From NCBI RefSeq assembly GCF_003100395.1, contig NZ_CP029210.1, forward strand, positions 2,108,001 through 2,172,000: a DNA stretch of 64,000 nucleotides, given 5' to 3'. Below, piece by piece: positions 35,544 through 38,703 of the stretch (its first letter is position 1; every line of letters begins with the position of its first letter). The position numbers and the translations under genes are program-made. Below the pieces are notes generated by a model that was not told the origin of the DNA, searched no databases, and worked only from the letters and a program-made list of their open reading frames with translations. The stretch is from Aquabacterium olei. GTDB lineage: Bacteria > Pseudomonadota > Gammaproteobacteria > Burkholderiales > Burkholderiaceae_C.

Positions 35544-36131
35544 TCAGCGCCGGTCCATGAAGGCGTGCGCGATGGTGCCGAGGTCGACGTACTCGAGTTC
35601 GCTGCCCACCGGCACGCCACGCGCCAGCCGGGTCACCTTCAGGCCACGGGCCTTCAGTTGCTCACCGAGCACATGGGCCGTGGCCTCGCCTTCTGCATTG
35701 AAGTTGGTGGCAAGAATCACCTCCTCCACCACACCATCGCTTGCCCGGGTCAGCAACGCCGACAGGCCGATGTCGCGGGCCCCAAGTCCATCCAGCGGGC
35801 TCAGCCGCCCCAGCAGCACGAAGTACTGCCCCTTGTAGCTGCCCGTGCGTTCAAGGGCCGCCTGGTCTGCCGGCGTCTCGACCACGCACAGCAACCGCGC
35901 ATCACGCGTCGAATCTGCACACAGGTCACACAACTCGGCGCGACTGAAGGTATGGCATCGGGCGCAGTGCCCGATCTCGTTGACGGCACCATCCAGCGCG
36001 CGCGCCAGCTTCAGGGCGCCAGCGCGATCATGTTGCAGCAGGTGGTAGGCCATTCGCTGCGCCGACTTCTGCCCGACACCGGGCAGGCAACGCAGGGCTT
36101 CGACCAGCCCGTCCAGCGCCGGATCTGCCAT
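35544..36131 (-). CDS. recR: Recombination mediator protein RecR
   Basis: Part of RecFOR, which loads RecA on gapped DNA. 195 residues: helix-hairpin-helix ([20 protein letters not shown]), a four-cysteine zinc finger ([16 protein letters not shown]), a Toprim domain ([20 protein letters not shown] to [19 protein letters not shown]) and a C-terminal Walker-B-like part ([16 protein letters not shown]). It follows ybaB by 13 bases in the conserved dnaX-ybaB-recR unit. Confidence 0.97.
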
Positions 36132-36144
36132 GGTGCAATCCCGT

Positions 36145-36471
36145 TCAGAACGGGAACTTCATGCCGGGGGGCATGGGCATCCCGGCCGTCAGCTTGCCCA
36201 TCTTCTCCGAGCTGGTCGCCTCGGCACGACGCACGGCATCGTTGAACGCCGCGGCCACGAGGTCCTCAAGCATGTCCTTGTCGTCGGCCAGCAGGCTCGG
36301 GTCGATCGTCACCCGCTTCACATCGTTCTTGCAGGTCATCACGACCTTGACCAGGCCCGCACCGGACTGACCTTCCACCTCGATCTGGGCCAGCTCTTCC
36401 TGGGCCTTCTTGAGGTTGTCCTGCATTTGCTGGGCCTGTTTCATCAGGCCGGCGAGTTGTCCTTTGAGCAT
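36145..36471 (-). CDS. ybaB: YbaB/EbfC nucleoid-associated protein
   Basis: 108-residue DNA-binding protein acting as a dimer. It starts [20 protein letters not shown] and has the family core [20 protein letters not shown], with a Met/Pro/Gly-rich C-terminus. It coats DNA as a nucleoid-associated factor and is almost always encoded between dnaX and recR, as here. It lies 63 bases after dnaX. Confidence 0.95.
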
Positions 36472-36534: not shown

Positions 36535-38703
36535 TCAGATCGGCCTGATGGAAGCCGGGACGATGCGCGCCCCGGGATGCTGCAGCAACAACGACTGCAC
36601 CAGCGGATCACTCTGGATCAAGGCTTCGGCATCGCGCTGGCGCTGCTCGCGGGCAGCCTGATCGCGCTGAGCCGGCGTGTTGAACGCCGCCCCGCGCTCC
36701 ACGGTGACCGACACCGGTCGCTGCAAGTGCTGCGTGAGGGCCTGCGTGAGCCGGTCCTGCAACGCTGCGGTGATGAGGCTTTCACGCTCGACACGGAGCG
36801 TGCCTGCGATGCCCTCACCTTGTTCCTGCCACGCCACGCACTGCGCCTGCATGGCCAGTTCGCGCACCAGCGCGGCGATCAAGCCCTGCCCGGCCATCGC
36901 CGTCACGAGGTCAGCCCATTCATCGGAAAGCGGATCCGCCCCGCGAGGGGGCAAGGTCGGCGTCACCGAGGGACGCGCCTCGGGGGGCACCTCGGCGGGA
37001 GGCGATGAGACCGAGGCGCCCGGACGGGCCGATGTCCGCATGGGCTCCGACGGGCCCCGACGAGGGCGGGATGTCGACACCGAATCCGGCACGTCGTCGG
37101 GCACGTCCATCCAGGCGGGCTCGTCCGGCATGGCGGCCGGGGCCGCATCCCATTCATTGGCTTCCGGCGGCAGCGCTTCCCATGGGGGAATGCCGCCGCC
37201 GTCCCGTGCCTCCTGAGGCGCGGTACGGGGCGCAGGGGCAGCGGCTGGCGAAGCAGCCGGGGCAGCCACCACAGGCGGATGAGGCGCCGACGCTGCCTCC
37301 GGCGACGGGGCGACGGGGCGCACGGGTGCCACCGGTGGCGCCACAGGGTCGAGGGTGCGGGCCGGCTCCGCCCGCGCCTCGGCAACAACGGGCACCGGCG
37401 CGGCGATGCCACCGCTGACGGGCACTCGTGCGCTGGCCTGAGCGACGGCAGTGTTGCCGGAAGCCGACGCCCCGGACGCCGAAATGGGCCGCGCAGCTGC
37501 ACCCGCCGGCGCGGCCGCTGCCTGCGTCACCGGCGTGCGACGGGGCTCGACGGCGTCAGGCTGCGCCGCCGAGCCCAACGCTTTTGGGCCTGGGCCGCCC
37601 CCCTGTCCGGGCTTGAAGGCAAGCAGGCGAAGCAGCAGCATCAGCAAGCCGGCGTACTCGTCGGGTGCCAGTGCCAGCTCGGCGCGCCCTTGCAGGCACA
37701 GGCTGTAGAAGAGTTGCGTTTCATCGGGCGCCAACAGCGGCGCCAGCGCCGCCCAGGTGGCCGCGTCCGGGTCTTCCAGGTCGAGTGCCTGGGGCACGGC
37801 CTGCAGCACGGCCATCCGCTGCAGTGCGGAAGCCATTTCCTCCAGCGTGCCGGCTGCAGACAGCCCCATCTGGCGCAGCGTATCCACCGCTGCCACGAGC
37901 GCGGCACCATCACACGCCGCCACCGCCTCGATGATCCGCTGCACATGCGCCCGGTCCACCGAGCCCAGCATCTGCCTCACCCCGGCCTCGTCAAGAAGCC
38001 CGGCACCAAAGGCAATGGCCTGGTCCGTCAACGACAGCGCATCGCGCATGGAACCGCGCGCGGCCCGCGACAACAGACGCAAGGCACCCGGTTCGGCCTC
38101 AATGCCCTCGGCCTGCAGCACACTGCCCAGGTGCTCGAACACGGTTTCCGCCGCCATGGGCCGCAAGTTGAACTGCAGGCAGCGCGACAGCACCGTCACG
38201 GGCACCTTTTGCGGGTCGGTGGTGGCGAGCACGAACTTCAGGTAGTCGGGCGGCTCCTCCAGCGTCTTCAGCATGGCGTTGAACGCCGTGTTCGACAGCA
38301 TGTGCACTTCGTCGATCATGTAGACCTTGAAGCGCCCGACCACCGGTTTGTAGACCGCCTGCTCCAGCAGTTGCGAGATTTCCTCGACACCGCGGTTGGA
38401 AGCCGCATCGAGTTCAACGTAATCGACAAATCGTCCACTGTCGATGTCACGGCAGGGCTGGCACTGCCCGCACGGGCTGGCCGTGATACCGCCTTGTCCG
38501 TCGGGCCCGACGCAATTCAGCGATTTGGCCAGAATGCGCGACACAGTGGTCTTGCCCACCCCCCGGGTGCCGGTGAACAGGTAGGCGTGGTGCAGGCGCT
38601 GCTGGGTCAGGGCGTTGCCCAATGCCTGAACCACATGCCCCTGGCCGACCATGCTGTCGAAACCTTTGGGGCGGTATTTGCGCGCGAGTACCGTCGAAGT
38701 CAT
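36535..38703 (-). CDS. dnaX: DNA polymerase III subunits tau/gamma
   Basis: Clamp-loader ATPase. 722 residues: AAA+ domain with Walker A GTRGVGKT (45-52), zinc cysteines (CGQCQPC), Walker B MIDEVHML and the arginine-finger SRC motif, and domains II-III to about 365. A long Pro/Ala-rich linker (about 365-600) and the tau-specific C-terminal domain follow. A possible -1 frameshift site at residues 367-369 would give a 382-residue gamma-like form. No ribosome binding site precedes the ATG, and a TAGAAT hexamer ends 6 bases before it. Confidence 0.97.
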   Translation of the reverse strand: MTSTVLARKYRPKGFDSMVGQGHVVQALGNALTQQRLHHAYLFTGTRGVGKTTVSRILAKSLNCVGPDGQGGITASPCGQCQPCRDIDSGRFVDYVELDAASNRGVEEISQLLEQAVYKPVVGRFKVYMIDEVHMLSNTAFNAMLKTLEEPPDYLKFVLATTDPQKVPVTVLSRCLQFNLRPMAAETVFEHLGSVLQAEGIEAEPGALRLLSRAARGSMRDALSLTDQAIAFGAGLLDEAGVRQMLGSVDRAHVQRIIEAVAACDGAALVAAVDTLRQMGLSAAGTLEEMASALQRMAVLQAVPQALDLEDPDAATWAALAPLLAPDETQLFYSLCLQGRAELALAPDEYAGLLMLLLRLLAFKPGQGGGPGPKALGSAAQPDAVEPRRTPVTQAAAAPAGAAARPISASGASASGNTAVAQASARVPVSGGIAAPVPVVAEARAEPARTLDPVAPPVAPVRPVAPSPEAASAPHPPVVAAPAASPAAAPAPRTAPQEARDGGGIPPWEALPPEANEWDAAPAAMPDEPAWMDVPDDVPDSVSTSRPRRGPSEPMRTSARPGASVSSPPAEVPPEARPSVTPTLPPRGADPLSDEWADLVTAMAGQGLIAALVRELAMQAQCVAWQEQGEGIAGTLRVERESLITAALQDRLTQALTQHLQRPVSVTVERGAAFNTPAQRDQAAREQRQRDAEALIQSDPLVQSLLLQHPGARIVPASIRPI
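37556..37603 (-). promoter_or_regulatory. Candidate -1 frameshift signal within dnaX
   Basis: On the coding strand, reading down from 37603: GGGGGGC (37603-37597), in frame as G GGG GGC. A 7-base spacer follows, then the perfect hairpin GCCCAA-AAGCG-TTGGGC (37589-37573). In the -1 frame the next stop is TGA at 37558-37556, 13 codons on. The slip would end the protein at 382 residues, just after domain III. The arrangement matches dnaX frameshift elements in other bacteria in kind, not in sequence. Confidence 0.55.

Follow-up and report, generated by a model that had tools for sequence, protein, structure and literature searches.

The question raised by this locus is whether its dnaX gene yields, beside full-length tau, a shorter gamma-like product by -1 frameshifting, and at which bases the ribosome would slip. 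The DNA analyzed, referred to here as the window, is a stretch of 64,000 nucleotides from Aquabacterium olei, and all positions are counted from its first letter. The dnaX gene (tau, 722 aa) was placed at 36535..38703 on the minus strand from its open reading frame and the Pfam domains of its product, which were DNA_pol3_delta2, DNAX_ATPase_lid, DNA_pol3_gamma3 (residues 238-362) and DNA_pol3_tau_5 (residues 593-706). The last two mark domain III and the tau C-terminal domain, so a shift near residue 370 would yield a gamma-like product. The gene is followed by two open reading frames at 35544-36131 (-) and 36145-36471 (-); we take these to resemble recR and ybaB/EbfC, presumably in the order usual in bacteria.

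A sequence-only reading of this stretch had proposed that dnaX undergoes programmed -1 frameshifting and so yields a product of gamma size, ending beyond domain III, and the sequence supports that much. All of the letters on which it was built are present on the minus strand within dnaX: G_GGG_GGC is in frame at 37603-37597, GCCCAA (37589-37584) and TTGGGC (37578-37573) are separated by a 5-base loop, and a -1 frame UGA is found at 37558-37556. Sequence evidence supports well the conclusion that dnaX makes a gamma-like protein by -1 frameshifting, but the slip site and hairpin had been misassigned. A second slippery heptamer, C_CCA_AAA, lies in frame at 37582..37588 (-), 15 bases on from G_GGG_GGC and sitting within the 5' arm of the proposed hairpin. 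Its codons, 373 (Pro) and 374 (Lys), are beyond the end of the domain III match at residue 362. The -1 frame UGA (37556..37558, -) is at codon index 10 after the slip, and the predicted short product of 382 residues (374 plus the tail SVGLGGAA) would retain domains I-III without the tau domain (593-706).

The genus search covered 42 genomes and returned a dnaX match in 41; the genus name Aquabacterium is used because the named relatives of the clade are mostly so called. C_CCA_AAA was found in frame in the linker after domain III in 39 of the 41 same-genus genomes, in 39 distinct cassettes. The reading of the window as an isolated oddity was rejected, the cassette being common to these 39. Among these relatives it is C_CCA_AAA that was kept, and not the G run, which was kept in 2/41. 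Two genomes among the 41 that are labelled as the same genus, G010 and G012, are without C_CCA_AAA. In a tree of DnaX domains I-III they fall outside the main clade, on long branches and with unsure placement. The C_CCA_AAA genes form one clade in that tree (40 rows, support 100/100), in which one further row, L016, also carries the heptamer.

The codons of the heptamer are fixed to a degree not seen elsewhere in the gene. The slip-site lysine is AAA in 39/39 cassettes, compared with 22% of lysines elsewhere in dnaX (n = 455) and 6/67 within residues 300-480, and the slip-site proline is CCA in 39/39, compared with 12% elsewhere (n = 2130). At invariant columns of domains I-III, AAA reached a frequency of at most 0.69 (8 Lys columns) and CCA at most 0.15 (10 Pro columns); a single codon was fixed in 10 of 201 invariant columns, in every case a codon ending in C or G and never in A. 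A synonymous null was generated from 200 random synonymous-codon draws per genome for the 39 genomes. The heptamer arose in a mean of 0.68/39 genomes, against 39 observed, and the combination of heptamer, Shine-Dalgarno-like stretch and stem of at least 7 pairs in a mean of 0.10/39 (maximum 2), again against 39 observed; for the window alone, this combination arose in 1% of draws. Since the 39 cassettes are related and their counts are not independent draws, no P value is given. C_CCA_AAA and the stem at 37576-37564/37555-37543 are, because of their conservation, far beyond chance. For 401 bases around the site, Rfam returned four matches, none of them anywhere near the threshold of its family, and a family-wide pattern scan with CCCAAAANNTGA was unspecific, matching many unrelated places.

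Upstream of the heptamer, the sequence AGGGGGGC (37597..37604, -) ends 8 nt before the slip site and is predicted to pair with the 16S tail at -10.1 kcal/mol; the G run is better read as this Shine-Dalgarno-like stimulator. Across the 39 cassettes, predicted pairing with the 16S tail peaks for 8-mers ending 8 nt upstream of the heptamer. Pairing of -6 kcal/mol or better within 4-14 nt was found in 39/39, whereas control positions reached it in 16-19% of cases and shuffles in 36%, and the synonymous null gave 22.6/39 at this cutoff against the observed 39. In the window itself the stretch follows from the encoded residues, being present in 200/200 synonymous draws.

Downstream, a 5-nt spacer (37577..37581, -), of the same length as in the E. 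coli dnaX control, leads from the heptamer to a stem with the 5' arm GGGCTCGGCGGCG (37564..37576, -) and the 3' arm CGCCGTCGAGCCC (37543..37555, -), both arms being assigned from the alignment fold, covariation and folding. The 8-nt loop (37556..37563, -) holds the -1 frame UGA. The stem begins 3-7 nt past the heptamer in the 39 cassettes (mode 6, window 5) and has 7-14 contiguous pairs (window 13). Stems of at least 9 pairs were found in 31/39, compared with 4.5% at other places in the same genes, and stems of at least 7 pairs in 39/39, compared with 34% elsewhere and with 9.9/39 under the synonymous null. RNAalifold recovered the stem unaided from the 39-sequence alignment, with changes on both sides in 5/9 pairs. 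Alignment cells of the stem were paired in 96.0% of cases, compared with 86.6% when shuffled and at most 49.3% when slid, and the covariation score was 0.325 compared with 0.140. Among the compensatory changes, five genomes have C-G in place of U-A at columns 17/45, and five standard pair types occur at columns 21/41.

An early -1 stop had also been part of the earlier proposal. It is the rule in the genus, where the stop is at index 3 (CCC AAA nnn UGA) in 32/39 cassettes, at index 10 in 5/39 and at index 13 in 2/39; the window itself departs from that rule in stopping at index 10. Under the synonymous null a -1 stop within index 3 arose in 11.7/39 (maximum 17), against 32 observed, and at random linker codons a stop at index 3 was found in 9%. 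The window, one of the five with an index-10 stop, has GCG TTG where most have GCT GA(A/G); by this comparison it appears to have lost the index-3 stop, and its next -1 UGA is the one in the predicted stem loop. Stops at index 10-13 are unremarkable, since a stop follows within 10 codons at 24% of random linker codons. The seven genomes without a near stop all retain the heptamer, the Shine-Dalgarno-like stretch and a stem of 8-13 pairs, which suggests that the frameshift signal is still in use in them. In the +1 frame, just 3/39 genus members have a stop within 10 codons.

Taken together, these features are strong evidence for a programmed -1 frameshift in the window dnaX, and the gene very probably carries a three-part -1 ribosomal frameshift cassette at C_CCA_AAA. 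The parts are in place, their conservation exceeds the demands of the protein, the stem shows covariation, and the layout resembles E. coli dnaX. That slippage occurs, how frequent it is, and the use or role of gamma in Aquabacterium are what we infer from them. In the proposed mechanism, the ribosome would decode CCA AAA while the Shine-Dalgarno-like stretch upstream and the stem-loop downstream hold it at the slip site; tRNA-Pro and tRNA-Lys would re-pair to CCC AAA, and translation would stop at the nearby -1 frame UGA. The outcome would be gamma (374 residues plus SVGLGGAA) beside full-length tau.

Three other explanations were weighed against this one. Slippage at G_GGG_GGC, aided by the GCCCAA/TTGGGC hairpin, would use letters that are present, in frame and followed by the same -1 stop, and the hairpin (37573..37589, -) can fold alone at -7.6 kcal/mol (z -2.36, 4/200 shuffles as good). 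The letters are, however, weak evidence for a slip site: in-frame GGGGGGC occurs 4 times in the 48 long open reading frames of the window and CCCAAAA twice, dnaX being counted in both. Among the 41 same-genus dnaX genes, the in-frame G_GGG_GGC of the window recurs in just one other, that of its nearest relative G057, against C_CCA_AAA in 39/41, and the G run was rejected as slip site; two others, G003 and G044, have G_GGG_GGA. The hairpin was likewise judged not to be the stimulator. It overlaps the conserved slip site, its A-U pairs need the TTG codon that is found in just 1/39 cassettes, and its 3' arm is common to the conserved longer stem, with which it is mutually exclusive. That stem has much the greater stability: a segment of 46 nt starting with the C_CCA_AAA heptamer folds at -28.2 kcal/mol (z -4.44, 0/200 shuffles as good), and the predicted fold of 81 nt contains the longer stem (z -1.49, 15/200 shuffles as good). 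GGN codons were also on average less shift-prone in E. coli, according to the available text of PMC4066793, and slippage at the G run is considered highly improbable.

It is equally improbable that PKAEGS/PKALGS is merely a conserved peptide of the tau linker from which the DNA pattern follows; the peptide is indeed conserved within an otherwise variable linker, but its codons are fixed against usage (AAA and CCA, each 39/39), the stem covaries, and synonymous draws that preserve the peptide yield just 0.68/39 heptamers. Least probable of the three is that gamma in Aquabacterium arises by transcriptional rather than ribosomal slippage. Such slippage is likely in those relatives within the family that have a run of nine As (A9) at the site, as described below; the C3A4 of the genus is, however, without a long homopolymer, and its +1 frame is closed within 10 codons in 3/39 compared with 68/70 of the A9/A10 genes. 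The Shine-Dalgarno-like stretch and the stem are present in Aquabacterium, while pairing of -6 kcal/mol or better was found in 21% of A9/A10 genes and stems of at least 7 pairs in 11/70 of them, compared with 29% at control places. By stop layout, Shine-Dalgarno-like pairing and stem, the genus and the A9 groups differ as ribosomal and transcriptional slippage should, and ribosomal slippage at C_CCA_AAA is the preferred reading for the genus.

The wider family was surveyed in 160 genomes, 154 of which had a match. Of these, 151 lay outside the genus, and the site was read in 107 of them, using 27 loci and 80 fetched fragments from 97 genera. The dnaX linker (L144-L250) had an in-frame A9 in 69 of the 107, A10 in one and A_AAA_AAG in one (G155); 35 had neither an A run nor A_AAA_AAG, and one had an ambiguous base (G208). 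No genus that was read more than once was mixed in site type. The A9 genera, we infer, are for the most part those that NCBI places in Comamonadaceae. Among the 70 A9/A10 genes, the +1 frame was closed within 10 codons in 68 and the -1 frame in 65; both were closed in 63/70, compared with 4.7% of control positions. Nine As cause transcriptional slippage in Thermus thermophilus dnaX, as reported in the accessible part of PMC1088944, and slippage of the Thermus kind is probable in these family genes from their layout. In one of them, L240 (G180), the A9 run stands directly before a C_CCA_AAA that is in frame and is followed by a -1 stop at index 5, an arrangement that may be chance or an intermediate.

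A scan of the 35 signal-less family genes for efficient heptamers yielded no case in which a -1 stop follows within 15 codons. Named loci with no A run or efficient heptamer with an early -1 stop include L045 (Roseateles), L029 (Rhizobacter), L033 (Leptothrix) and L025 (Sphaerotilus). Caulobacter gamma arises by proteolysis, according to the available portion of PMC5009743, and in the signal-less genomes gamma may be absent or proteolytic in the same way. The A_AAA_AAG gene of G155 (L169) is nested in the clade formed by the 4 A9 rows that the tree contained; here a possible hairpin comes after the heptamer, and the mechanism appears to have changed once more. Deeper forks of the tree are weak (93/65, 98/79), and for this reason no ancestral state is claimed. 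An order search covered 60 genomes, of which 58 matched, and 28/56 outside the family were read: the linker of 2 (L262, L280) has an in-frame A9, one (L261) has C_CCA_AAG and reaches a -1 stop at index 11, and 12 further named loci outside the family had none of these signals.

From the differing site types, the route to gamma appears to have been turned over inside one family. We think it likely, though with less assurance than for the cassette itself, that this route was replaced while the product was kept, with A9 transcriptional slippage in 62/97 genera, ribosomal slippage at C_CCA_AAA in Aquabacterium and at A_AAA_AAG in one lineage that branches within the A9 clade, and 32 genera where no signal is visible. 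If true, selection on gamma would be strong enough for different decoding tricks to have preserved or re-invented it, and the family would be a natural test both of the purpose of gamma and of the replacement of one decoding mechanism by another. The importance of gamma was long disputed. The available text of PMC5009743 now links E. coli gamma with UV resistance and Pol IV mutagenesis, and that of PMC13220808 is similar; in Chlorobium-type dnaX genes it is tau that needs the shift (PMC5009743, same portion).

As far as could be seen, the cassette is known in kind and new in its heptamer and host genus. Shifting in dnaX is not new among the betaproteobacteria, since Neisseria belongs to that class as well. 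The dnaX entries of Recode-2 that appear in the accessible part of PMC3711429 are from Escherichia, Neisseria, Salmonella and Vibrio, and the site logo, drawn from nine genera, is an A run. C_CCA_AAA would add to the dnaX signals a heptamer other than an A run, in a GC-rich genome. Within the available parts of the open-licence literature, no report was found of C_CCA_AAA in dnaX or of A9 in dnaX of the family of Aquabacterium, nor any natural dnaX example with this C_CCA_AAA heptamer.

Among known systems, Thermus thermophilus has the same gene and the same product pair as the window (PMC1088944, available part), and most of the 70 A9/A10 family genes share its layout. The window differs from Thermus in having C3A4 and no A run, and its genus has as a rule one closed frame. 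The heptamer itself is of a class that shifts in E. coli reporters. In the text available from PMC4066793, C_CC.A_AA.A is one of 18 motifs listed as giving more than 0.10% shifting in E. coli when no stimulator is present, V_VV.A_AA.R is given as one of the most efficient classes, and AAN and UUN codons shifted more on average than GGN and CCN; the strongest motif was C_CC.A_AA.G, not C_CC.A_AA.A. Both of these heptamers were also seen there to shift with IS911 or IS3 stimulators, in reporters that, unlike Aquabacterium dnaX, are artificial constructs.

The closest comparison is with E. coli K-12 dnaX, which was analyzed as a positive control with the same script as the genus cassettes. The control returned A_AAA_AAG at codon 429, a Shine-Dalgarno 8-mer ending 9 nt upstream (-7.4 kcal/mol), a stem of 6 contiguous pairs at offset 5, and stops at index 3 in the -1 frame and index 13 in the +1 frame; its values of 9, 5 and 3 for Shine-Dalgarno distance, stem offset and stop index compare with modes of 8, 6 and 3 in the genus. 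Unlike E. coli, the genus has a different stem sequence with 7-14 contiguous pairs, and the window has its slip at codons 373-374 rather than 429-430 and its -1 stop at index 10 rather than 3. The heptamer is C_CCA_AAA, not A_AAA_AAG, and the cassette is therefore filed as a variant and not as the same signal. Like E. coli dnaX, it has an in-frame X_XXY_YYZ heptamer in the linker after domain III and before the tau-specific part, a Shine-Dalgarno-like stretch 8-9 nt upstream, a stem 5-6 nt downstream (window offset 5), and an early -1 stop that would give a shorter product without the tau C-terminal domain.
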